Shown in pieces: positions 9,082-27,444 of a stretch of DNA of 32,703 nt. The DNA lies in NCBI GenBank assembly GCA_031285725.1, contig JAITVP010000148.1, positions 1 through 32,703 on the forward strand, written 5' to 3'. This stretch comes from Bacteroidales bacterium. GTDB taxonomy: Bacteria; Bacteroidota; Bacteroidia; Bacteroidales; WCHB1-69. The notes under the pieces are model-generated. The model was not told where the DNA came from. It worked only from the letters and a program-made list of their open reading frames with translations, and ran no database searches. How positions within the stretch are numbered: position 1 is the stretch's first letter; each line of letters starts with the position of its first letter. The position numbers and the translations under genes are program-made.

Positions 9082-9922
9082 CTGATGCGTTAATTTTTTA
9101 ATTTCAACCGTAAATATTTGATTACACATTAGATACAAGCGTTCTTTGATTTGAATTGACCGTAGCTTTGTATCCTTACAAATTGCAAGGTCATGGATTC
9201 AGGCAAGTATGTTTTCTCTCAGCTACTAGAGTTTGTGGACAGCTATGAGTTTACCAAATGCGTAAAACGCTATAATGGAGATTATCGAGTCAGAGATTTC
9301 AACTGTTGGAGCCAGTTTGTACAGTTGTTTTTCGGACAACTTACATCTTTGAACTCTTTACGGGATATTTGTCTTTGTATAAAAGCCCACAGGCGAAAGC
9401 TTTACCATTTAGGAATAAAGCAACATGTAAATCAATCAACCATTTCACGAGCCAATGAGAGTCGAGACTGGCGGATTTTTGCCGACTTTGGAGATTTTCT
9501 CATAAGATTAGTTCGTCCGCTTTATTTGGATTCACCCATTCCTGATATGGATATTGATAACGAAATATTCGCACTGGATTCTACAACGATTTCCTGTAGT
9601 ATCAATCTTCTAATATGGGCTGAGGGAAAATACAGCAACGGAGCTGTCAAAGTCCATACTTTGATTGATTTACGATGTACTATTCCGACTTTTATCCTCA
9701 TTACCGATGGGAAGTATCATGACAGTAACGCGCTATAGACGAAACCACAGGACTAAGAACCGACAAAAGCACGCTCTCTATTTATGAGATTATGCAAATA
9801 CTGGGAATATCGGCTTTTGACAAAACCCCGATAAAGGAACTGCTTACCGAATTCCAAGTCAATTCAAAACAAAATGTCAAAGAGCAATTGGATTTATTTA
9901 ATTCAAATTTTTAACGCATCAG
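9082..9922 (+). mobile_element. internally deleted IS4-family-type insertion sequence
   Basis: Perfect 12-bp terminal inverted repeats CTGATGCGTTAA (9082-9093) / TTAACGCATCAG (9911-9922) bracketing N- and C-terminal transposase fragments. Confidence 0.75.
9193..9914 (+). pseudogene. IS4-family transposase (DUF4372-type N-terminus), central part deleted and frame broken
   Basis: MDSGKYVFSQLLEFVDSYEF...FALDSTTISCS then abrupt change at ~9730 into out-of-frame C-terminus AIDETTGLRTDKSTLSIYEIMQILGISAFDKTPIKELLTEF...QLDLFNSNF*. Confidence 0.8.
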
Positions 9923-10177
9923 TAGTAATCCATGCGCTATGGAACTGCCTCAAGCACAAATGCGAACAGATTTTCGACATGTTGTATTTTTATTTACATT
10001 TGCCGAGAATTATTTATAAAATTCAACTAATGAAAGTCGTAACACACACCGTGAATCTCATGAAAATACTTTTAAAAAGAGAGAATACTTTATGGCCTGT
10101 CCGATTAGTGCGGAGTATGTCATTTCCAACGATGGTTTTGTGTAAGCGAACTAAAAAATAATAATTGTTAAAATAAA

Positions 10178-11701
10178 ATGAAAATATATATTATTGCTAT
10201 TTTTTTTCTTTTTGGACTTTGCATTCAAATGCAATCCCAAGAAATGACACTTTCTAAGAAACAGATGTATGAAGATTTTGATGAACTTATTCATATTTTA
10301 CAAGATTGTAATGCTCAATTGCCTATTCGCAAGATTGTTACGGGTATTGATCAAATAGCATTAGCTAAATCTCTCCGCTCGGCTATTGATACGATTTCAA
10401 CAACAGATAGTTTTATAGCACTGCTGAATACGGTATTAAATTATATGTATGATATCCATGCAAGGGAATCTAATGCTTACTTTGTGGGATACGATAATTT
10501 GAAAGGGATTGACACTGCTATAATGAGCTATAGGGAAAATAATAAAGATTTTTCAAATAAACATCTATTTCCGGCAAATCCATTGTTTGCTAACGGGGAA
10601 TATTTTATTCCGGGAATTTATCAAATGATAGACCTTGAAAATAGAGACACGATTTTTCTTTATTATTCGAAAATAATCTCATACAAAGGTATCCCTTATG
10701 AAAAATATGTGCAGGACAATCTTGCATATTTTAGTCCCATAGGAACTCGCTGGGATAATGAAAAAAAAGAATATTATTCAATAACCTCTCTTATTCCATT
10801 TACTGACACTATTAAAGTGGAAAATCAGGGGAATGAGATTGACATAGACCTGGGGAGAAAATATAAAATTAGTATCACCCAAACAGATACCGTATGCAAA
10901 AAAGAGGACGTGCAAAAATCGAAATTTCCATTAGGAGAAAAAAAGGTACTCTATTTTGAAGAGGATTCAATCTTATACATTTATTTAAATGATATGATAG
11001 ATTTTGAAAATCTTATACCTTTGAAGATAAAGAATATAGGAAAACTAAAACCGATTTCAAAAATTATTATTGATGTCAGAGGAAATAGAGGAGGTGGGGA
11101 TCTCGTTTGGCACAATATCCTGCGAGCTATTGTTGCGGACACTTTGATATATGATCCGGTAATAGCTTTTAAAAACACAAAGCGACTAAAAAAATTCTAT
11201 TCCTATCCTAATGCTTTTGCAGACATTAGAAAATTAGACATCAAGGTGTTTGATTGGTGTCCTGATGAATCTTTTTTAGTTACGAACTTTGAGCACACTT
11301 TTCTTATCCCTGATTCTAATTCATTGCAATATACGGGAAAGATATATATAATACAAAATGAAGAGGTCTACTATGCAGGACATTCATTGACAACGTATGC
11401 ATCACATATAGAACAACTCGTATCTATTGGTGAACCGAGTGGATTATTCGCTGGATTTGGATTATCGCCTAATTTATTTCAATTGAAACACTCTAAGTTT
11501 TCATTTCGTATAGAATTAGCCATTGATGTATCGGAGGTCAAAGAACCATCAGATGTATATCAAAATATTCCGGAGATTATAGTTGCAATTCCTCCAAAAG
11601 AAAAATTTGAATATATAAAAGATCACTCCTATGACAAACAAAGCAAGGAGTACTTATACAAATATGACTATTTATTCAGAAAAATTGCAGAAATGAAATG
11701 A
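10178..11701 (+). CDS. S41 (C-terminal processing) peptidase-like secreted protein, possibly catalytically inactive
   Basis: Signal peptide; KIIIDVRGNRGGGDLVWHNI core; NEEVYYAGHSLTTYASHIEQLVSIGEPS region. Confidence 0.65.
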   Translation: MKIYIIAIFFLFGLCIQMQSQEMTLSKKQMYEDFDELIHILQDCNAQLPIRKIVTGIDQIALAKSLRSAIDTISTTDSFIALLNTVLNYMYDIHARESNAYFVGYDNLKGIDTAIMSYRENNKDFSNKHLFPANPLFANGEYFIPGIYQMIDLENRDTIFLYYSKIISYKGIPYEKYVQDNLAYFSPIGTRWDNEKKEYYSITSLIPFTDTIKVENQGNEIDIDLGRKYKISITQTDTVCKKEDVQKSKFPLGEKKVLYFEEDSILYIYLNDMIDFENLIPLKIKNIGKLKPISKIIIDVRGNRGGGDLVWHNILRAIVADTLIYDPVIAFKNTKRLKKFYSYPNAFADIRKLDIKVFDWCPDESFLVTNFEHTFLIPDSNSLQYTGKIYIIQNEEVYYAGHSLTTYASHIEQLVSIGEPSGLFAGFGLSPNLFQLKHSKFSFRIELAIDVSEVKEPSDVYQNIPEIIVAIPPKEKFEYIKDHSYDKQSKEYLYKYDYLFRKIAEMK

Positions 11702-14496: not shown

Positions 14497-15624
14497 TTAT
14501 ACTTTCGGCAGCATTACCGTAAATGTTGATCCCTTATCAGGCACGCTCTCTACGGAGACTGTGCCATGATAAACCTCGTCAACGATTTTTTTGAGGATGG
14601 ATAGTCCTAAACCGCTGCCACTGATGGCTTTGGTCTTGTCGTTTTTGATGCGGACAAATTCTTGGAAGAGTTTGGAGATCTCTTCTTCTGAGAGGCCGAT
14701 GCCGGTGTCACTCACGGAGATACGGATGCAGGCACCCTCATCACGGAGTTCGCAGTTGACCTCGCCGAAATCCTTGTTATATTTCACCGCATTGGAAACG
14801 AGATTGTTGAATATGATTTCCACCTCCTGTCGATCGGCGGTGTAGAGGATATGCTCCGGCTGTGCATCGATGTTGATTTTAACATTTTTTTGGATGGCCA
14901 TTGGACTCATGGTATCTTTGGAAATCCGCATCAGTTCCACCAAGTCCACTTTTTGCACGTCCCTGCTTTTTTTGCCCGATTCCAATCGCGTCAAATCCAA
15001 CATATCCATGATGAGACTGCGCATTCCTCTGATTCGTTCGAGGGAACGGTCGATCATCACTTTATAGTCGGAGATATTTTCGCCAAGTTGCCCGTCTTTC
15101 ATGATGTTAAGATATCCTTCAATGGCATTGATCGGGGATTTCAGTTCGTGGGAAAGTACGGACAAAAACTGGAATCGGATCTGTTTTCCCTCCGTGTTCA
15201 TCTTTTTGGTCATTCTTCGCAGGTAGAGATTCTTGGTGATCCATTCCATGGAAGTTTTCAACTCCGTGGGCGTGAATGGTTTGGGTATAAAATTATATGC
15301 GCCGTTGTTCGTGGCCTTGACCGCCAGATCCAACGACGCATACGATGTGATCATCATCACGCTACAATCGTACTCTTTTTTAGTGAGATATTCCAGTACC
15401 TTGATCCCATCCATGCCCGGTAATTTATTGTCGAGCAACACGATATCAACCTCGCCCGCATCCAAAAGCTCCACCGCACGCTCGCCCGTTTCGACCTCGA
15501 TGAGATTAAAGTCGAACTCTTTATCCAAGAAGGGGAAGTCAACGGTGAAATGGTTTAAAATTCGGACGATACCAGAGCGAATACCAGGTTCGTCATCCAC
15601 GATGAGCACGTTCAAAGTAGCCAT
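14497..15624 (-). CDS. hybrid response regulator / histidine kinase (REC-HisKA-HATPase)
   Basis: VLIVDDEPG...LLDNKLPGMDG; LSVLSHELKSPINAIEGYL; DTGIGLSEEE, GSGLGLSI. Confidence 0.9.
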   Translation of the reverse strand: MATLNVLIVDDEPGIRSGIVRILNHFTVDFPFLDKEFDFNLIEVETGERAVELLDAGEVDIVLLDNKLPGMDGIKVLEYLTKKEYDCSVMMITSYASLDLAVKATNNGAYNFIPKPFTPTELKTSMEWITKNLYLRRMTKKMNTEGKQIRFQFLSVLSHELKSPINAIEGYLNIMKDGQLGENISDYKVMIDRSLERIRGMRSLIMDMLDLTRLESGKKSRDVQKVDLVELMRISKDTMSPMAIQKNVKINIDAQPEHILYTADRQEVEIIFNNLVSNAVKYNKDFGEVNCELRDEGACIRISVSDTGIGLSEEEISKLFQEFVRIKNDKTKAISGSGLGLSILKKIVDEVYHGTVSVESVPDKGSTFTVMLPKV

Positions 15625-15636
15625 GACAATGGGGTT

Positions 15637-16038
15637 TTATTTGCCTAACAATTGACTGATCTCCATCTCAAGCTGTTCGGGTCGCAATCCTTTTTCCAAG
15701 TAAGCGTCGGCTTTGATCCATTTTTTTTCTTCGTCGGTGTTCACGCCAAACATCATGCCGGTGTCGGATGTTACCGACGTAAGGATGATCACCGGTACAT
15801 CCGGATATTTCTTCTTCATTTTATAGCTCAAGATAAACCCACTGTCGCGGTTGTCCATCATCAAATCAAGAATAGCAATATCCGGCTTGGTGGTTTCGAT
15901 AATCTCTTCTGTGTCTTTTTGTGATTCAGCCGTAATCACTTTAAATCCAATTTGTTGAAGATGAAGTGTCATTTGCGTGATCATGTCTACATCGTCATCA
16001 GCTAATAAGGCTGTCATGTTTTTGAATTTTTGTTCCAT
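15637..16038 (-). CDS. single-domain response regulator
   Basis: ALLADDDVDM...IAILDLMMDNRDSG...ILTS; no output domain. Confidence 0.85.
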   Translation of the reverse strand: MEQKFKNMTALLADDDVDMITQMTLHLQQIGFKVITAESQKDTEEIIETTKPDIAILDLMMDNRDSGFILSYKMKKKYPDVPVIILTSVTSDTGMMFGVNTDEEKKWIKADAYLEKGLRPEQLEMEISQLLGK

Positions 16039-16053
16039 AATTTTTAATCTTTT

Positions 16054-17283
16054 CTATTTTCTTCTTGGTATTTTAACTTTAAATGTTGTTCCGGTCGGGC
16101 CTTTTTCAGGATTATTGTTTGATTCGACCTGAATTTGTCCCTTGTGCATCTTCACTATCCCATATAACAACGGCAACCCCAATCCGGTTCCCTTACCCAC
16201 TGGTTTGGTGGTGAAAAACGGAGTGAAAATCTTGTCCATGTTCTTTTCGGAAATGCCGGTGCCGGTATCTTTGATCAGAAACTCGACTTCCTTGTCATCT
16301 CCATTGAGAATGATAGACAGCGTGCCGCCGGTTTCGGGCATCGCTTCAATGGCGTTTTTTTCAATATTGGTTAAGACTTGCATAAACTGATCCATATCCA
16401 CTTCCACCAGTTTATCCATTAGATTAGATTGAATGTCAACCCGAATCGGGTCGGGAATGATCACGGATTCGATGCTGCGTTGCACAAAGGCTTCTATGTC
16501 GGTTTCTTGATGGCGCACTTGATTTTTTCTTGCGAAATTCAACAAGCCACCCACAATTTTCCGACACCGTTCCGCCTGTTCTACAATGAGTTCCAGATCG
16601 GCGTGCCGGGCATCGCCTTCCTCCAACTCTTCCAATAAGATATTGCTATACATCGTGATGATTCCCAATGGATTATTTAGCTCATGCGCAATGCCTGCCG
16701 AAAGTTGCCCCATCGAAGCCAATTTTTCGCTTTGGCGAAGGGATTGCTGTGCGGAAGCCAACTTTTCGTTGGAAAGGTTCAACTCCGCCACCGATTTGTG
16801 CAGTTTTTCAATGGTGAACGGTAGACACATTTCGGGTTTCGCCAACCCTTCCACCATGGCGATCGCATGGTCGATGCAGGTGTCGTATCCGCAAGCGCCG
16901 CAATTGAGGTGTTCTTGGGGATTACCTTTGCCCATTGAGACCAACACGTTTTCAATCTCCTCGTTGGAAGGATTTGGAATTCGCCGATCCGCCGGATGGA
17001 AAGACTCCGAGTAATCCCCGTTTTTGAATTGATCGAAATTTTGTTGCCATTTCTCCCGATCCAATGTTTTAATTTTATTGGACACGTAATTTTTCATTTT
17101 GGATACTTTGGTAAAATAGTGCGTTCCTTGGGTCATTCCCGGTCCCATGATACGACTTGAAATAACCTCTGCCTGGCCATTAACCATTCTAATGGCCTTG
17201 ACAGGGCATTCTCTCACAAAAGTGTAACACACTTTACACCTGTCTTTTACCGTGAAAACAAGTTCGTTGCTTGGACGTGCCAT
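16054..17283 (-). CDS. Fe-S-cluster-containing sensor histidine kinase
   Basis: N-terminal ferredoxin-like CKVCYTFVRECPVKAI, CGACGYDTCIDHAIAMVEGLAKPEMC cluster, H-box SAGIAHELNNPLGI, HATPase motifs. Confidence 0.88.
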   Translation of the reverse strand: MARPSNELVFTVKDRCKVCYTFVRECPVKAIRMVNGQAEVISSRIMGPGMTQGTHYFTKVSKMKNYVSNKIKTLDREKWQQNFDQFKNGDYSESFHPADRRIPNPSNEEIENVLVSMGKGNPQEHLNCGACGYDTCIDHAIAMVEGLAKPEMCLPFTIEKLHKSVAELNLSNEKLASAQQSLRQSEKLASMGQLSAGIAHELNNPLGIITMYSNILLEELEEGDARHADLELIVEQAERCRKIVGGLLNFARKNQVRHQETDIEAFVQRSIESVIIPDPIRVDIQSNLMDKLVEVDMDQFMQVLTNIEKNAIEAMPETGGTLSIILNGDDKEVEFLIKDTGTGISEKNMDKIFTPFFTTKPVGKGTGLGLPLLYGIVKMHKGQIQVESNNNPEKGPTGTTFKVKIPRRK

Positions 17284-17295
17284 TGATTTCAGTAT

Positions 17296-18393
17296 TTATA
17301 ACAAGACATCTCTTTCTTTATAAGTGGTATGGAGCAAGTCATGGCTCTTGTGTCCCAGTGGTTTACCCAAGAACTTTTCATACAACTCGATAATTTCGGG
17401 ATTTTTGTGTGAAACTTTGATCGTTTCCCGTTCGTCGATGTCGTAGAGCGATTTCATACGGGCAGCCACGAAAGACTCGCTGGCACCGATGATCTGACCA
17501 CCGCCGGCAATACAGCCACCGGGACAGGTCATCACCTCGATAAAGTGGATGTCATTGCGCCCGTTGCGAATCTCTTCGATGAGTGCTGCCGCATTCGCCA
17601 AACCGCTCACCACGGCTACGCCGATTTCGAGATCATCGGTGATCTTGATTTTCGCCTCTTTCCGTCCATCGAAACCTCTGACTGCACATACTCTGAAATC
17701 TTTAAGTTCTTCGCCGGTGATCATCTTATAAGCTGTACGAATGGCTGCTTCCATCACACCACCGGTTGCGCCGAAAATCTTACCCGCAGAGCTTCGGATG
17801 CCCAGCGGAGAATCGGCGATTTCAGGTTCAATATTTTTTAAATCAATGCCATACAATTTGATCATCTGGATCAATTCGCGGGTGGTCAACACAATGTCCA
17901 CATCGGGAACGCCGTTGCGGCTCATCGTTTCCCGTTCCGCTTCAAACTTCTTAGCGGTACAAGGCATGATGGACACGGAAACGATCTCTTCCGGTTTCAG
18001 GTTGCTCTGTTCCGCAAAGTGACTTTTGATCACTGCGCCTAACATCTGCTGAGGTGATTTACATGTAGATAGATTACCCAACATGTCGGGAGCGAATTCT
18101 TCGGCATATTTCACCCAACCCGGACAACAGCTGGTGAACATGGGCAATTTGCCGCCGTTTGTCACGCGGTGGATCAGCTCGGACGCCTCTTCCATGATGG
18201 TCAAGTCGGCGCTGAAGGTGGTGTCGAACACGAAATTGAATCCCATTTGCCGGAGGGCGGTATTTAACACGCCGTTCAAATCTTCGCCGGGTTCCATGCC
18301 GAAAGCTTCTGCGATGGAAACCGTGATGGAAGGAGCATATTGCACCACTACTTTTTTATCTTTGTGATTTAAAGCTTCTTGCACTAAAGTCAC
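17296..18393 (-). CDS. hydA: [FeFe] hydrogenase catalytic (H-cluster) part, separated from its N-terminal half by an in-frame TAG
   Basis: H-cluster motifs TSCCPGW, MPCTAKKFE, EVMTCPGGCIAGGGQ; frame contiguous with the upstream ORF. Confidence 0.9.
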   Translation of the reverse strand: MTLVQEALNHKDKKVVVQYAPSITVSIAEAFGMEPGEDLNGVLNTALRQMGFNFVFDTTFSADLTIMEEASELIHRVTNGGKLPMFTSCCPGWVKYAEEFAPDMLGNLSTCKSPQQMLGAVIKSHFAEQSNLKPEEIVSVSIMPCTAKKFEAERETMSRNGVPDVDIVLTTRELIQMIKLYGIDLKNIEPEIADSPLGIRSSAGKIFGATGGVMEAAIRTAYKMITGEELKDFRVCAVRGFDGRKEAKIKITDDLEIGVAVVSGLANAAALIEEIRNGRNDIHFIEVMTCPGGCIAGGGQIIGASESFVAARMKSLYDIDERETIKVSHKNPEIIELYEKFLGKPLGHKSHDLLHTTYKERDVLL

Positions 18394-18402
18394 ATTGTTC
18401 CG

Positions 18403-19023
18403 CTAGGTCAACGCACCGGTCGGGCAAACCATGATACACTGACCGCAGTTGATACAGCTGGAGGTGTTCAGCGGTTTCTTTAACGTGGTGCCGATAAATG
18501 TTTGGCTACCCCGGTTGATGTAGTCGATGCAAGCCACATCCATGATCTCTTCGCACACCCGCACGCAACGGCCGCAAAGGATGCATTTTTCCGGGTCGCG
18601 TACGATGCTCGGACCGGAGTGGTCTAATTTGAAACTGTTTTTCTTGCCGCGGATTCGCCGTTCTACCACGTTGTACTCTTTAGAAAGGCTTTGCAATTCG
18701 CAATTTCCGTTTCGCAAGCAGTACAAACAGTCGTCCGGATGGTTGGACAACAACAATTCGATAATGGTTTTACGCGCTTCGGTCACTTTCAACGAGTGGG
18801 TCAGCACTTGCATGCCGTCGTAAACGGGGAATGAGCAAGATGCCGCCAACTTCGGACTTCCTATGATCTCCACCACACAAATACGACACGCCCCGGTGGG
18901 AATGAATTTTTTCATGTGACATAACGTGGGCACTTTGATGCCGTTTCTATTCAGCGCGCTTAATATGGTTTCGCCTTCAAAGGCTTCTATTTTTTTACCG
19001 TTAACTTCTATTTGAATACTCAT
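18403..19023 (-). CDS. hydA: [FeFe] hydrogenase N-terminal [2Fe-2S]/His-Cys3/2x[4Fe-4S] part, ends at in-frame amber codon
   Basis: HPDDCLYCLRNGNC, CILCGRCVRVC, CINCGQCIMVCPTGALT*. Confidence 0.9.
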   Translation of the reverse strand: MSIQIEVNGKKIEAFEGETILSALNRNGIKVPTLCHMKKFIPTGACRICVVEIIGSPKLAASCSFPVYDGMQVLTHSLKVTEARKTIIELLLSNHPDDCLYCLRNGNCELQSLSKEYNVVERRIRGKKNSFKLDHSGPSIVRDPEKCILCGRCVRVCEEIMDVACIDYINRGSQTFIGTTLKKPLNTSSCINCGQCIMVCPTGALT

Positions 19024-19034
19024 AACTCTGTTTT

Positions 19035-20978
19035 TTAAATCATTTCAATTGCATTAAAATTACATGACTCTTTGCAAGAACCACAGCCTATACATTTGTC
19101 ATCAATAATGTAGTGGGGTGCTTTCTTCGATCCGATAATAGCACCGGTAGGACATTTCCGCGCACAGAGTGTACAACCGGTACATAAGTCCGCATGGATT
19201 TTGAATTTTCGTAATTCGGTACAAGTCCGGGTCGGGCAATTCCGTTCGAAAATATGCTCTTCATACTCTTTCCTGAACCATTTCAAGGTACTCAGCACCG
19301 GGTTGGGTGCTGATTGTCCTAATGCGCACAACGAAGTTTCCTTAATGATCTGTCCGAGTTTCTCTAACTGCATCACGCCGCGCATTCTCTCTAATGCGGA
19401 ATTAGGTCCGTTGTGGATCGGTTTAGTGGTGATGCTTTCCAGGATTTCCAACATACGACGGGTTCCTTCGCGGCAGGGAATACATTTCCCGCAGCTTTCG
19501 CGTTGGATGAAGTCCATGAAGAACTTCGCCACGTCAACCATACAGTTATCTTCGTCCATCACAACCAGACCGCCGGATCCCATCATTGCGCCCACCTTCA
19601 ACAACGATTCATAGTCGATTTGGATATCCAAGTTCTCATCGGTGATACAACCGCCAGACGGACCGCCGATCTGCACGGCTTTGAACTTCTTGCCGTTTGC
19701 GATACCGTCGGCAATGTCGAACAAAATCTGACGGATTGTGGTTCCCATCGGAATCTCCACCAACCCCGTGTTTTTAATTTTTCCAGACAAAGCGAACACT
19801 TTCGTTCCCTTGCTGGTTTCGGTACCCACGGAAGCAAACCATTCCCAACCCTTTGCGAAGATTTCAGGAATGTTGGCGAACGTCTCCACATTGTTGATCA
19901 CGGTGGGTTTGCCGAACAAGCCGCTCACTGAAGGGAACGGCGGGCGTGGACGAGGCATGCCTCGTTTACCTTCAATACTGTGGATCAATGCGGTTTCTTC
20001 TCCGCAAACGAACGCACCGGCTCCCATCTTGATCTTCAATTCGAAATCAAAACCGGTTCCGAAAATGTTTTTCCCCAACAAGCCGTACTCTTTCGCTTGT
20101 TTGATGGCAATTTGCAGGCGTTTGATCGCCAACGGGTATTCCGCGCGGATATAGATGTATCCGATGGAAGCCCCGATTGCGTAAGCCCCGATAGCCATAC
20201 CTTCCAGCAGACGGTGCGGGTCGCCCTCAATCACGGCGCGATCCATGAACGCACCCGGGTCACCCTCGTCGGCATTACAGATGATATATTTTTGGTCGTT
20301 TTGCTCTTTTTGCGCCACTTTCCATTTCCGTCCGGTGGGGAAACCGCCGCCGCCACGGCCGCGCAATCCACTCTTTTCCATGAGATCGCACACCGCTGCG
20401 CCATTGTGTTTCTTGATCAGATCCAGCAGTGTGCTGTATCCGCCAAAAGCGATGTATTCCTCAATGCTTTCCGGATCAATCAAACCGCAATTTTTCAAAA
20501 CGATCCGACGTTGGCGAACGAAGAAGGGGTGATCGTTGAAATTGGTGATGTTTTCCCATTTCGCACCGCCTTCTATCGGAAATTGTCCGAGCACCTGTTT
20601 CATTTCCGGTTTCCCGTTGAAGGCGGTGTTCAACACATCGTCCACTTTCTCTTGGGTCACATTTTTGAAGGAGATTCTGTTTTTGCCCGGAATCTGCACG
20701 TCCACGATGGGTTCCGCGGTACATAGACCGATACAGCCCACTTCCATCACATTGGCAACCAGTTTGTTATCTTCGAGATATTTCTTGATAGCGGAGATGG
20801 TTTCCCCTGCCCCGGCACCCAATCCGCAGGTGCCTGCACCCACGTAAATCATTGGTTTGTCAATAATTTCCCGTTTTATCACGCGCATCTCTTTTTGAGC
20901 TTCTGCGCCATCTATTTTCAGACCTTTCAAAAGATCCATCAATAAATTTGTCCTTTTTTCTGAATTCATTCCGGTCAT
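19035..20978 (-). CDS. hydB: NuoF-like hydrogenase subunit beta (HydB)
   Basis: SGLRGRGGGGFPTGRKW, ESCGKCIPCREGTRRM, C-terminal 2x[4Fe-4S]; start set to ATG 20978, 1 nt after the hydC stop (ORF track starts at 21005). Confidence 0.9.
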   Translation of the reverse strand: MTGMNSEKRTNLLMDLLKGLKIDGAEAQKEMRVIKREIIDKPMIYVGAGTCGLGAGAGETISAIKKYLEDNKLVANVMEVGCIGLCTAEPIVDVQIPGKNRISFKNVTQEKVDDVLNTAFNGKPEMKQVLGQFPIEGGAKWENITNFNDHPFFVRQRRIVLKNCGLIDPESIEEYIAFGGYSTLLDLIKKHNGAAVCDLMEKSGLRGRGGGGFPTGRKWKVAQKEQNDQKYIICNADEGDPGAFMDRAVIEGDPHRLLEGMAIGAYAIGASIGYIYIRAEYPLAIKRLQIAIKQAKEYGLLGKNIFGTGFDFELKIKMGAGAFVCGEETALIHSIEGKRGMPRPRPPFPSVSGLFGKPTVINNVETFANIPEIFAKGWEWFASVGTETSKGTKVFALSGKIKNTGLVEIPMGTTIRQILFDIADGIANGKKFKAVQIGGPSGGCITDENLDIQIDYESLLKVGAMMGSGGLVVMDEDNCMVDVAKFFMDFIQRESCGKCIPCREGTRRMLEILESITTKPIHNGPNSALERMRGVMQLEKLGQIIKETSLCALGQSAPNPVLSTLKWFRKEYEEHIFERNCPTRTCTELRKFKIHADLCTGCTLCARKCPTGAIIGSKKAPHYIIDDKCIGCGSCKESCNFNAIEMI

Positions 20979-20979
20979 A

Positions 20980-21441
20980 TTACTCTTTGTTTCTATAGGT
21001 TTCAACTAATTCATTAATACTTTCTGGGGTCATGTTGGCGTGGAACGTGCCGTTCACGCTGATGACCGGAGCCAGACCGCAAGCACCTATGCAGGCCACC
21101 ACTTCAATGCTGAATAGGGCGTCGCGGGAGGTTTGTCCCGCCTTCATTTTCAGTGTTCGTTCCAGTTCTTGCAGCACGGAGAGTGATCCGAGCACGTGGC
21201 AAGCTGTTCCGCGGCACACCTGGATGTGATACTTTCCTTGGGGTTCAAACCGGAATTGGTTGTAGAAAGTCGCCACCCCGTAGATCTTACTGGTGGGAAT
21301 GTTCAATTTTTCTCCGGTTTTCACGATAGCTTCTTCCGAAAGGTAGCCCTCGTTTTCCTGAATCTTTTGAAGCAATGCGATCAAGGCGTCTCTCCCGCTG
21401 TTTTCGTACTTCTCTAAGATGTTGTCAATTGATTTTTTCAT
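20980..21441 (-). CDS. hydC: NuoE-like hydrogenase subunit gamma (HydC)
   Basis: CRGTACHVLGS and ACIGACGLAP [2Fe-2S] motifs. Confidence 0.9.
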   Translation of the reverse strand: MKKSIDNILEKYENSGRDALIALLQKIQENEGYLSEEAIVKTGEKLNIPTSKIYGVATFYNQFRFEPQGKYHIQVCRGTACHVLGSLSVLQELERTLKMKAGQTSRDALFSIEVVACIGACGLAPVISVNGTFHANMTPESINELVETYRNKE

Positions 21442-21587
21442 AATAAATTTTTGATTACTAAATTTATTGGGTTATAACTCTGTGATTTGTTTTTGTTGTA
21501 AAAGAAGATTGTAAAACACTTGTCATTTGAAAATGGAATCATCTTCAAAAAAGAGTGTTTTGCAATAAAAAATGCCAAAAAATGGCT

Positions 21588-22085
21588 CTATTTCCCCAAT
21601 ATCCGAACGATTTCTGCGAACACCTTCTTCCCGTCCACGGGTTTGCGGACGAAGCCGTCCACCGGGAACCAGATGGAGTCGCCCTCTTCGTTCAGATAGT
21701 CAACACCGGACTTTCCAGTGTTGATGTCTTTCACCAAGATCACGTGCAACTCTTTGAAACCAGGGTTCTTGCGGAACTCGCGTGCCATAGATTGCACATC
21801 CGGCTTGGTGGTCGTGAGGATGTCTATGGAGGTCTGCATCAATACGGGGATTTTGCGCAATTCGGGATCGTCGGTAAGCTCTTTTGCAAGCTCAAATCCC
21901 TCGTAATGCGTGGTCATCATCACGTCTAAGATGGCTAAATCAGGCTCCTCATCCCTGATTTTCTGCATCCCTTCCACCTTGTTCATGGCGGAAATGACGT
22001 TGTATCCCTCTTTGGACAAGATGGTTTCGATGATGGCGATCACATCAATGTCATCATCGACAATTAAAATTTTTTTACTTTCCAT
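21588..22085 (-). CDS. response regulator with extended REC domain
   Basis: ILIVDDDIDVIAIIETIL...LAILDVMM; late conserved Lys in GFVRKPVDG after a long insert. Confidence 0.85.
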   Translation of the reverse strand: MESKKILIVDDDIDVIAIIETILSKEGYNVISAMNKVEGMQKIRDEEPDLAILDVMMTTHYEGFELAKELTDDPELRKIPVLMQTSIDILTTTKPDVQSMAREFRKNPGFKELHVILVKDINTGKSGVDYLNEEGDSIWFPVDGFVRKPVDGKKVFAEIVRILGK

Positions 22086-22198
22086 AACGCTCTGTTTTGG
22101 TATAATAACAACATTTGGCAGGTGTTTTTCGTAATCTAATCAATCGTTACTTGAAAAGGACAGCTTTTCCAAATTTACTTTTCCCCTTTCAAGCGGTG

Positions 22199-22206
22199 CA
22201 AAGGTA
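22199..22206 (-). promoter_or_regulatory. candidate -7 element TACCTTTG for the RR-hyd operon
   Basis: TAnnTTTG match about 114 nt upstream of the first ATG. Confidence 0.45.
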
Positions 22207-22443
22207 CAACAAATTTCAATTAAAAAAAAGTGCAAAAATCATTTTTAACTAATTCTTTTTCAGATAGTTTACATGCAGTTAATAAAGAAAAAAATCTTTA
22301 TTAACTTAAACAGAATCCACACGCTCAGTCCCTAAACTTTTTTTCCTTTTTTTTGTTTCATCTGCATATTCAGATGAAATGTCAGGTAAACCTGTTGAAT
22401 CTGTGTGCTATTAAACGATGTTTTAATCATTAAAACAACCATT

Positions 22444-22497
22444 ATGAAAAATTTAAATTTGGCATTAATTGCGGCGTTGGCTATGTTGACTTTTTAA
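22444..22497 (+). pseudogene. truncated duplicate of the NlpE/META lipoprotein 5' end (17-aa mini-ORF MKNLNLALIAALAMLTF*)
   Basis: 47 of 52 nt identical (counted by eye) to the start of the gene at 24381. Confidence 0.8.
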
Positions 22498-22509
22498 CAA
22501 AAAAATGAT

Positions 22510-24318
22510 ATGAAAAAAAGTTTTTCCATTTTCTTCATTATAGTATTATTTTCTTTATTATCAATACATTCCTTGCACTCACAAGAGGCACCTTCGTGGG
22601 ATGAATTGAATGCCCGACCTTACCCGCAATGGTTCATTGATGCGAAGTTGGGAATTTTTATCCATTGGGGTATTTATTCGGTTCCCGCTTATGGCGGACC
22701 GGAGTCTTATGCTGAGTGGTTCCTGCGCGGTATCGATGTTGGCGATCCGAGACGGACACAATTTATGAAACAGGTTTGGGGTGAGGATTTCACTTATCGC
22801 GACTTCGCTCCACTCTTCAAAGCCGAACTTTTCGATCCGGATGAGTGGGCGAATATTTTTCAAAAATCAGGGGCAAAATATATTCTTCTGACATCCAAAC
22901 ATCACGATGGCTATTGCCTGTGGCCTAGCCGATATGCGCCGAATTGGAACAGTGTGGAGATCGGACCGCACCGCAATATTGTGGGTGAATTGAAAACCGC
23001 CGTGGAAAAACAAGATATAAAATTTGGAATTTACTACTCTTTGGCAGAATGGAATAATCCATTACACTATTGGTATAAAGATCCGCATGACTCCATTGCG
23101 AATTATGTGAATAACTATATGATCCCGCAATTCAAGGAGGTGATCACGGCATACAAACCCGAAGTGCTTTTCACGGATGGTGAGTGGTTCAACACCGCAG
23201 AGCAGTGGCACGCTCGGGAGTTGATTGATTGGTATTACAATACCGTAGGGCCGATGGCGATCGTGAATGATCGTTGGGGATACGGTGCGGATGTGGGGTT
23301 CAAAACGCCCGAATACAGTTCGGGTGGGTTGAAGATTGATCGACCATGGGCGGAAGTGCGCGGATTGGGCAGATCTTTTGGACTCAATCGCTATGAAAAA
23401 CTTTCCACCTATATGACCTCTCGCGAGCTGATTGAGCTTTTTGCACGGGCAATCGCTTGTGGAGGTGGTTTGATTATCAACGTTGGACCCGCTGCCGATG
23501 GACAAATCCCATTGATACAACAAGAACGGATTGAGGCGCTGGGAGAGTGGATTCGTATCAACGAAGAGGCGGTATACGGTTCAACCGCTTGGATAAAACA
23601 CGGCGAGGAGCACGAAGTAACTCTCACCCGGATTGACACGACAATCAACTTCAACTGGGTGCGTAATTCGCCGGGTTATCCCATCATGGAAGACTACTTT
23701 ACCGCCACGTGGAACGGTTTCATCCAACCCGATTTTGATGGTGAATACACTTTCACCGCCACCGCCGATGAAGGCATGTACCTCTTCATCGATGGCGAGT
23801 TGGTGTTGGATTTATGGGAAGGCACTGTAGAAAGCACCGATTCGGAAGCGATGCGGGAGTTAGAACAACAAGATAAAAAAGGTGCGGTGAAGCTGAAAAA
23901 GGGCGAGTTGCATGCGATCCGAATTGATTTCCGAGAAGAAACGCATGCAGCCTCTATCTCGTTGAGTTGGGAACACAAAAATATCCCCAAAGAAGTGGTG
24001 CCGGGGCGGAACTTCTACACCACGAACGCAGCCATACAGCACGGTTTGAATGCCGAGTATCGCTCCATGCGCCAATATATCGCCTACACGCAAAATCATG
24101 GAAATATTTATGCCATCTGTTTTGAATGGCCTGATGACCGCTTGGAGCTGCCGATTGATGCTCCCCCTTCCGGCACCAAAATTTCCTTATTAGGAAGAGA
24201 CGGCGACCTCCCTTGGAAACACGAGAACGGCAAACTAATCATTGATGTTTCCGGTGTGAAATACAACGAGATCCCGAACCATGAAGCTTGGACTTTTAAG
24301 ATAATTAATAACTATTAA
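22510..24318 (+). CDS. GH29 alpha-L-fucosidase with C-terminal PA14-like domain
   Basis: FIHWGIYSVPAYGGPESYAEWF, SKHHDGYCLWPS, LFTDGEW; PA14-like YTFTATADEGMYLFIDGELVLDLW. Confidence 0.92.
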   Translation: MKKSFSIFFIIVLFSLLSIHSLHSQEAPSWDELNARPYPQWFIDAKLGIFIHWGIYSVPAYGGPESYAEWFLRGIDVGDPRRTQFMKQVWGEDFTYRDFAPLFKAELFDPDEWANIFQKSGAKYILLTSKHHDGYCLWPSRYAPNWNSVEIGPHRNIVGELKTAVEKQDIKFGIYYSLAEWNNPLHYWYKDPHDSIANYVNNYMIPQFKEVITAYKPEVLFTDGEWFNTAEQWHARELIDWYYNTVGPMAIVNDRWGYGADVGFKTPEYSSGGLKIDRPWAEVRGLGRSFGLNRYEKLSTYMTSRELIELFARAIACGGGLIINVGPAADGQIPLIQQERIEALGEWIRINEEAVYGSTAWIKHGEEHEVTLTRIDTTINFNWVRNSPGYPIMEDYFTATWNGFIQPDFDGEYTFTATADEGMYLFIDGELVLDLWEGTVESTDSEAMRELEQQDKKGAVKLKKGELHAIRIDFREETHAASISLSWEHKNIPKEVVPGRNFYTTNAAIQHGLNAEYRSMRQYIAYTQNHGNIYAICFEWPDDRLELPIDAPPSGTKISLLGRDGDLPWKHENGKLIIDVSGVKYNEIPNHEAWTFKIINNY

Positions 24319-24380
24319 CTATAAAGAACTATTTCTCTCCTTTTTTGTTTCAGTGCTATGATCATTAAAAAACAAATAGT

Positions 24381-25145
24381 ATGAAAAATTTAAATTTGCC
24401 ATTGATTGCGGTGTTGGCTGTGTTGACTTTTGGGGCGTGCAAATCTTCTTTGAAGAACAGCGAGGTGAAGTCGGATAACAGCGAGAACTCGTTAGATTGG
24501 AGTGGCATTTACAGCAATGTGCTGCCGTGTGCCGATTGCGAAGGCATTCAGACAACGATCGTGTTGAACCGGGATAACACGTACACCAAAACATGGCGAT
24601 ATCTGGATCGGGATGTGAGCAGTTTCACGGCAAGCGGAACGTTTTCTTGGGATGCTGACGGTCGGAAGATCACCCTGTCGGACATTGCCGAAACCCCCTT
24701 GCAATATCTGGTGGGTGAGAACCGCCTCCTCCAATTGGACATGGAAGGGATGGAAATTCCCACAGATCAACAGGATCTATACACGCTAACCAACATCGAT
24801 AATCTTGTGGAACACCATTGGAAATTGATTGAGGTGAATGGCAATCCTGTACCTGAAGGGATGCGCACGGAAGCGTACCTGATGTTCAAAGTAGAGGACA
24901 ATCGTCTGGTCGGCAGCGGCGGATGCAATTCGCTGACCGCTTCTTACATCGTCCGTAACGGTAACCGTCTTGAAATCACCGCTCCGGTAGCCACCAAGAT
25001 GGCCTGCTTGGACATGGAAGTGGAAACCCAGCTTTTCAGAGCTTTGGAAACAACCGACAACTACGCCATCCTTGGTGACACGCTTTCGTTGAATAGGGCG
25101 AGAATGGCGCCGTTGGCAAAATTTGTTAAGACGTTGGGACGTTAG
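24381..25145 (+). CDS. lipoprotein with NlpE-like N-terminal and META/HslJ-like C-terminal domain
   Basis: Lipobox TFGAC; GIYSNVLPCADCEGIQTTIVLNRDNTY; SGGCNSLTASY...MACLDMEVE. Confidence 0.85.
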   Translation: MKNLNLPLIAVLAVLTFGACKSSLKNSEVKSDNSENSLDWSGIYSNVLPCADCEGIQTTIVLNRDNTYTKTWRYLDRDVSSFTASGTFSWDADGRKITLSDIAETPLQYLVGENRLLQLDMEGMEIPTDQQDLYTLTNIDNLVEHHWKLIEVNGNPVPEGMRTEAYLMFKVEDNRLVGSGGCNSLTASYIVRNGNRLEITAPVATKMACLDMEVETQLFRALETTDNYAILGDTLSLNRARMAPLAKFVKTLGR

Positions 25146-25155
25146 GATATTGGGT

Positions 25156-27444
25156 TTAATCAAAGTCTGGTACTATCTTCTCCTTCACCTTTTCATTACA
25201 GCCATTGGCATCACCGGTGAAAGCTGCGGGGATTTGGAAATCGTAACCTTCTCCTTTGTCGGCAGCAACGCCCTTGTAAGGTAATTTGGGATCATTGTAT
25301 ACTTTTTGCATGAAAAGGGCGAACACGGGCATCGCCGTGCGGGCGCCCTGTCCCAGGCTGATGCTGCGGAAGTGAGCGGCGCGGTCTTCACAACCTACCC
25401 AAACGCCGCACGTCAGCGACGGGGAATAGCCCACAAACCACCCGTCTGATTGGTTGTCTGTAGTACCGGTTTTACCGGCTAATGGGAAGCCCAATTTATA
25501 CTGTGACCGCAGTCGTCCCCCGGTTCCGTAATCCACCACGCCTTGCATCAATCGAACTGTCTTGAATGCCGTGATTTGGTCGATCGCCTCGTTGGTTTTT
25601 GGGATAAATGTGTGGATGACATTGCCTTCCTTGTCACAAATAGTGGTGATGAAAGAGGGTTCAACATATACGCCTTGGTTAGGAAAACAGTTGATAGCCC
25701 CGACTTGTTCGTACAACGTTAACTCGCAAGCACCCAGACAGATGGATGGAACAGAGGGAATATCGGAAGTCATCCCCATATTGCGAACCAAGTGGATTAC
25801 CGATTCGGCTCCGAATTGTTTCATCAGGTAAGCGGAAACGTAGTTCAATGAGTGCGCTAATGCCTCTTTCAGCGGGAGCATCTGTCCGTTTTTGTAGTCG
25901 CCGGAGTTCTTGGGTGTCCATGTTCCACCCTCGGGCAGGTGGAATGTCACAGGAACGTTTGGCACCAATTTACAAGGATTGTACTCGCCGTTCTGCATTG
26001 CCACCGTGTACACGTACGGCTTGAATGTTGAGCCGACCTGTCGTTTCGACAGTTTCACATGGTCGAATTGGAAGTGATTGTAGTTGGTGCCACCCACATA
26101 TGCCTTCACATAGCCGGTGTGTGGTTCCATCGCCATCATGCCGCAATGAAGGAATGATTTCATGTAACGGATATGATCCATCGGCGTCATCACCGTGTCG
26201 ATTTCCCCTCTGTCCCAAGTGAAAACTTTCATCTCCATTTTTGTGTTAAATGCCTTTTTGATCTCCTCTTCCGTTGCGCCCTCCGCTTTCATGGCCAGGT
26301 AAAGTTCGGTGCGTTTCATGGCGGAATTCAAGATGCGGTCGGTCTCCTCTTTTGATATTCTGAAAAACGGTGCGTTGTCGCGACCTTTCCAATGATCGAA
26401 AAACATGGGTTGCAGATATCGGCAAACGTGTTCATGCACCGCAGCTTCGGCATGCCGTTGCATCTGCGCGTCAATGGTGGTGTAGATTTTCAACCCATCT
26501 TTATAAATGTCATACTGTGAACCGTCCGCTTTCGGATTGTTTTTGCACCACTCCACCAAATATTGCCGGATATACTCTCTAAAATAGGTGGCGATTCCTT
26601 GCGTGTGGCTTTGCACCCGGAAATGTGACATGTCGATTGGGATGGCTTGCACCGAATCCGCCATGTCCGGACTCAAGTATTTGTACTTTTCCATCTGCTC
26701 AATCACCGTGTTGCGCCGTTCCAGTGATGCGGTGGGATTCCGGCGGGGACTGTATTTTGTGGGCGCTTTCAACATCCCCACTAACAGTGCCGATTCCTCA
26801 GCGCACAGATCCTTAGGTTCTTTGCTGAAATAAGTATTGGAAGCGGATTTAATGCCCGAAGAATTATTTCCGAAATCAACGGTATTCAAATACATGGTCA
26901 TGATCTCGTTTTTTGAATATTCCCGTTCCAATTTGGCTGCCACCACCCACTCTTTCAGTTTGGTCATGATCATCTCCGCCTTAGACATATCGCTGCTGCG
27001 CGGAAAAAGGTTTTTCGCCAGTTGCTGTGTGATCGTGCTACCACCGCCCTTGTGGTTGTTGGTGAGTACCCCGAACGCCACCCGGAACAACGCCCGCACA
27101 TCCACGCCGGCATGGTCATAAAACCGCACATCCTCCGTGGCGATCAATGCGTCCGTGAGATTCTTAGGCAAATCATGGTAAGCCACCATTGATCGGTTCT
27201 CGATGTAGTATTTCCCCAGCAACTCGCCGTCATACGAATAGACCTCTGTTGCCAGGTTCGTGTTCGGGTTTTCCAAATCGGCGAACGATGGCATGAAACC
27301 CATATGTCCATGAGAAATCAGCCAGAATATCAACACAATACCAGCAACCAAAACGGAATAAACGATCCAAAATGGCTTGATCCACTTGGAATATTGAGTG
27401 TTTTGCTTGCCTTTTTTCTTTTTGGTTTGTCCTTTTTTATACAT
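25156..27444 (-). CDS. penicillin-binding protein 1A (transglycosylase/transpeptidase)
   Basis: GGGSTITQQLAKNLF, QVGSTFKPYVYTVAM, AGKTGTTDNQSDGWFVG; start placed at MYKKGQTKKKKG. Confidence 0.93.
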   Translation of the reverse strand: MYKKGQTKKKKGKQNTQYSKWIKPFWIVYSVLVAGIVLIFWLISHGHMGFMPSFADLENPNTNLATEVYSYDGELLGKYYIENRSMVAYHDLPKNLTDALIATEDVRFYDHAGVDVRALFRVAFGVLTNNHKGGGSTITQQLAKNLFPRSSDMSKAEMIMTKLKEWVVAAKLEREYSKNEIMTMYLNTVDFGNNSSGIKSASNTYFSKEPKDLCAEESALLVGMLKAPTKYSPRRNPTASLERRNTVIEQMEKYKYLSPDMADSVQAIPIDMSHFRVQSHTQGIATYFREYIRQYLVEWCKNNPKADGSQYDIYKDGLKIYTTIDAQMQRHAEAAVHEHVCRYLQPMFFDHWKGRDNAPFFRISKEETDRILNSAMKRTELYLAMKAEGATEEEIKKAFNTKMEMKVFTWDRGEIDTVMTPMDHIRYMKSFLHCGMMAMEPHTGYVKAYVGGTNYNHFQFDHVKLSKRQVGSTFKPYVYTVAMQNGEYNPCKLVPNVPVTFHLPEGGTWTPKNSGDYKNGQMLPLKEALAHSLNYVSAYLMKQFGAESVIHLVRNMGMTSDIPSVPSICLGACELTLYEQVGAINCFPNQGVYVEPSFITTICDKEGNVIHTFIPKTNEAIDQITAFKTVRLMQGVVDYGTGGRLRSQYKLGFPLAGKTGTTDNQSDGWFVGYSPSLTCGVWVGCEDRAAHFRSISLGQGARTAMPVFALFMQKVYNDPKLPYKGVAADKGEGYDFQIPAAFTGDANGCNEKVKEKIVPDFD

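Follow-up and report, generated by a model that had tools for sequence, protein, structure and literature searches.

A truncated copy of a lipoprotein gene's 5' region directly upstream of an alpha-L-fucosidase gene in an uncultured Bacteroidales lineage

We found that the 5' region of a lipoprotein gene is present in two copies that exactly bracket an alpha-L-fucosidase gene in a Bacteroidales genome, and that the left copy is truncated at codon 17. The duplicated module is native to the lipoprotein, and its duplication is younger than the split from a relative of the same genus (G002). With moderate confidence, we attribute the arrangement to a lineage-specific rearrangement in which the native lipoprotein 5' module was copied and a truncated copy was joined to a resident fucosidase gene, 15 nt before its start. 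Events of this type are known; ours is a further instance, and otherwise ordinary genome evolution. It provides a natural, roughly datable case, from an uncultured lineage of Bacteroidales, of a rearrangement that supplied one gene with the 5' region of its neighbour. Additionally, the locus lends itself to a straightforward reporter assay for whether short upstream open reading frames (ORFs) feed translation in bacteria without Shine-Dalgarno signals.

The duplicated module and the genes it flanks

The window, meaning the whole 32,703-nt stretch of DNA that was analysed, is one complete contig of a 2.1-Mb, 197-contig assembly, and both genes and both module copies lie on its forward strand. 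The fucosidase (22510-24318) is a GH29-type enzyme with PA14 and fucosidase C-terminal domains and predicted export, as indicated by matches to Pfam (PF01120, E 2.6e-105; PF07691; PF16757) and to the PDB (7pls, E 4.9e-87). Its Alpha_L_fucos domain scores 353 bits against a curated cut-off of 25, which places it in GH29. The gene that follows (24381-25145) encodes a lipoprotein with NlpE N-terminal (PF04170, E 1.7e-26) and META (PF03724, E 3.8e-22) domains, which scores below the NCBIfam NlpE equivalog cut-off (68.6 bits versus 243) and is the only full lipoprotein of this kind in the genome. The fucosidase resembles neighbouring genes in GC content and codon usage, and is thus native in composition. 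Elsewhere on the contig, genes at 1047-2920 and 9874-11701 have clearly lower GC (28-33%) and codon usage that deviates from the rest, and are possible foreign islands.

The right, intact copy of the module (24327-24431) is the native one and is conserved in the G002 orthologue. The left, truncated copy (22335-22494) comprises a T-rich element, an extra hairpin segment, an A-rich start region and 17 codons. The first 51 coding nucleotides of the lipoprotein (24381-24431) are identical to 22444-22494 at 47 positions; beyond codon 17 the similarity ends abruptly, and a TAA closes the left copy. The core of the repeat, taken as the best ungapped alignment (22432-22494 with 24369-24431, 63 nt), is 89% identical and has a blastn E value of 4.9e-18 with the whole genome searched. 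A blastn search with the left copy as query found no third copy of comparable quality in the genome. Farther upstream, both copies carry the T-rich element (22335-22360 and 24327-24352), 81% identical over 26 nt. These results bear out a first-pass annotation of the sequence, which had described two near copies of the lipoprotein 5' region with similarity extending upstream. In the alignment that it proposed as a check, of 22340-22500 with 24330-24435, the repeat itself holds, and its left start moves from 22340 to about 22335.

Together, the genome-wide blastn search and dinucleotide shuffling rule out chance similarity between the copies. The whole repeat pair outscored all 2000 shuffles, and the score of the upstream untranslated (UTR) part alone was reached in 8 of 2000, a significant but weaker result. 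The same DNA query gave weak matches in other genomes of the family, mostly in the A-rich start region. As for a family-wide leader, a generic start-region motif accounts for some of the UTR similarity and leaves the coding match unexplained.

The segment between the two copies (22495-24326) is filled exactly by 15 nt, the fucosidase ORF and 8 nt past its stop codon. The fucosidase is bracketed by direct repeats of the lipoprotein 5' region, as had been proposed, with a copy within a few nucleotides on each side. This bracketed arrangement was seen in one genome only.

Origin and age of the module, and its setting in relatives

The lipoprotein orthologue in G002 is 62% identical, and its leader contains AACTATTTGTATTCTTTTTTGTTCTTCA, matching AACTATTTCTCTCCTTTTTTGTTTCA in the right copy. 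Because the T-rich element and the approximate leader length are shared with this orthologue, the comparison indicates that the module originates from the lipoprotein gene. Over the 51 coding positions, there are 4 differences between the left and right copies, but 15-16 between either copy and G002. As the copies are closer to each other than to G002, these counts date the duplication to after the split from that relative.

A segment of about 55 nt (22361-22415, limits approximate) occurs in the left copy, contains two predicted hairpins, and is without counterpart in the right copy or in the G002 leader. From the T-rich element to the ATG, the leader measures 59 nt in G002 and 54 nt in the right copy, against 109 nt in the left. 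Since the leader length in G002 matches the right copy and not the left, an insertion of about 55 nt into the left copy is most likely. The downstream copy had been taken for a deleted version, which probably reverses the direction of change. The region 22355-22415 is predicted to fold at -14.4 kcal/mol (z -2.7). No second copy of the segment was found in the genome, and an Rfam search of the leader returned no credible match, with a single subthreshold snoRNA hit.

The first-pass annotation had proposed a comparison with relatives in which the lipoprotein has no adjacent fucosidase, and G002 is such a relative. Its lipoprotein is flanked by a PHP-like hydrolase and a methyltransferase-like gene, both identified by reading the sequence and not by family search. 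The G002 fucosidase lies on another contig beside a convergent gene and shows 80% identity across its C-terminal 451 residues; its N-terminal part and its leader fall past the contig end. Searches of the present genome for the neighbours of the G002 lipoprotein and of the G002 fucosidase found none, and so give no indication of which of the two genes moved.

Both G002 and a further relative (G001) share the conserved response regulator and hydrogenase block that lies left of the fucosidase here, and the PBP right of the lipoprotein is conserved in relatives too. In these relatives, the two blocks never adjoin the lipoprotein, the fucosidase or each other. Similarity to the upstream region of the G002 response regulator stops within an approximate left breakpoint zone (22285-22335). 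Taken together, these comparisons point to several rearrangements at the locus, both outer flanks included. Either insertion or leader duplication had been suggested for this locus. The duplication is established; insertion into a resident locus does not follow, as the outer flanks are unlinked in relatives, the fucosidase is native in composition and its G002 orthologue lies elsewhere. A tRNA-associated insertion was rejected, because the window contains no tRNA. At 22280-22303, near the end of the similarity to the G002 regulator upstream region, there is an A+T hairpin (TAATAAAGA-AAAAAA-TCTTTATTA), possibly a feature of a rearrangement junction.

Routes to the arrangement

Under the explanation that we favour, a rearrangement would have duplicated a module consisting of a putative promoter, a leader and the first 17 codons, leaving the fucosidase and the lipoprotein each behind a copy. 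The left module would then drive transcription of the fucosidase, by promoter or leader capture. A simple route would begin with tandem duplication of a unit made of fucosidase, module and 17 codons, after which the first fucosidase copy would have been lost; this would yield exactly the observed junction, and other routes would fit equally well. Because fucosidase and lipoprotein are not adjacent in G002, an ancestral fucosidase-lipoprotein order is an assumption. Left of the repeat, nothing that would mark a lost first fucosidase or a lipoprotein body scored above shuffles. A scan of the module that covered E. coli-type promoters recognized none with confidence.

The locus has the arrangement that characterizes capture, in that a duplicated 5' segment of a resident gene lies directly upstream of another coding region. 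Promoter capture through deletion or tandem duplication is an established mechanism in bacteria (PMC11111574), and examples cited in that source include the Salmonella histidine genes and the citrate transporter of the E. coli long-term experiment. Such events share with our locus a copied 5' region directly before another gene and a fused start fragment at the junction. Our case departs from them in the age and divergence of the duplicate, in the lack of a first copy of the captured gene, and in that a role of the module in expression is putative. Segmental duplication of a gene's 5' part, leaving a truncated pseudogene, likewise produces intact and truncated copies in tandem orientation. The locus differs in that the truncated copy stands immediately upstream of an unrelated intact gene, which it may serve.

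The same final anatomy, with the module copies in the right order and orientation, would result if the lipoprotein gene had first been tandemly duplicated and its left copy had then lost all but the 5' end, through deletion or through replacement with the fucosidase. We consider this possible but rather unlikely, as there is no lipoprotein 3' trace in 22495-24326 or to the left of it.

Insertion of a fucosidase cassette into a resident lipoprotein gene, with a target duplication of about 105-160 bp, could account for the direct repeats that flank the fucosidase and for the G002 lipoprotein standing alone. However, the boundaries show no sign of an integrase, an insertion sequence or terminal inverted repeats, and a short target duplication, which would be expected of a transposon or cassette along with a mobility gene or terminal repeats, is not what we see. 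The duplicated length far exceeds usual transposon target duplications. Additionally, the fucosidase is compositionally native and the flanks of the locus are likewise unconserved, and we regard such an insertion as unlikely.

The mini-ORF and translation of the fucosidase

The left module copy ends in a mini-ORF, MKNLNLALIAALAMLTF (22444-22497), which encodes a truncated lipoprotein signal peptide without the lipobox cysteine. Its 17 codons (22444-22494) and TAA (22495-22497) are followed by 12 nt and then by the fucosidase ATG at 22510, confirming the upstream ORF as first annotated. The mini-ORF and the fucosidase share a reading frame, with the TAA between them. All more distant fucosidase relatives whose start was readable lack the mini-ORF, in keeping with a capture specific to this lineage. 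At the mini-ORF start, A occupies positions -3, -6 and -12. The fucosidase start has a weaker context, with G at -3 and an additional AUG 5 nt upstream, which opens a two-codon frame whose UGA overlaps the fucosidase AUG (AUGAUAUGA overlap). In Bacteroidetes, initiation benefits from A at these positions, and AUGs tend to be avoided close to the start codon (PMC6847099).

The mini-ORF is probably translated, since it has kept a good start context. It is most readily interpreted as a fossil of the lipoprotein signal peptide, a leftover start. Its translation may feed ribosomes to the fucosidase start, and translational coupling between the two is possible. A literature search on upstream ORFs in Bacteroidetes yielded nothing specific. 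It had also been suggested that the mini-ORF attenuates fucosidase translation, for which the anatomy offers no support. An attenuator is unlikely, because 22050-25300 contains no terminator-like site and the 12-nt gap is too short to hold one. The locus resembles leaders that act by attenuation or translational coupling in that a short ORF with a good initiation context ends shortly before the start codon of an enzyme, here by 12 nt. In contrast to leader-peptide control, the locus has no terminator, no regulatory codon run and no conservation, and the peptide is a truncated signal sequence.

A selected regulatory leader that controls fucosidase synthesis, by coupling or by nascent-chain membrane targeting, would be consistent with the good mini-ORF start, the short gap, the common frame, the weaker fucosidase start with its overlap just before, and the structured segment in the left leader. 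However, we hold this to be quite improbable: the mini-ORF occurs in one genome only and has no terminator and no conserved relative, and 3 of its 4 differences from the right copy alter the amino acid. Recruitment of the truncated signal-peptide ORF as a regulator, whose translation and perhaps membrane targeting would keep the fucosidase in step with the lipoprotein behind the other copy of the module, is very improbable. An assembly artefact is scarcely credible even though the window is an entire contig of a fragmented, 197-contig draft, as substitutions and an insertion distinguish the copies, and their longest exact match, about 18-19 nt, is too short for a false join.

Left of the locus, the region 14497-22085 holds a hydrogenase cluster with two histidine kinase-like genes and a response regulator, in an order that is conserved in G002 and G001. 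Its [FeFe] hydrogenase group A6 gene (19023-17296, minus strand) contains an in-frame TAG at 18403-18405 (minus strand), where the aligned codon specifies Glu (GAG, GAA) in G002 and G001. The TAG may represent a nonsense mutation, readthrough or a sequencing error. The frame reopens 9 nt past it at a GTG, between the ferredoxin-like and H-cluster parts.
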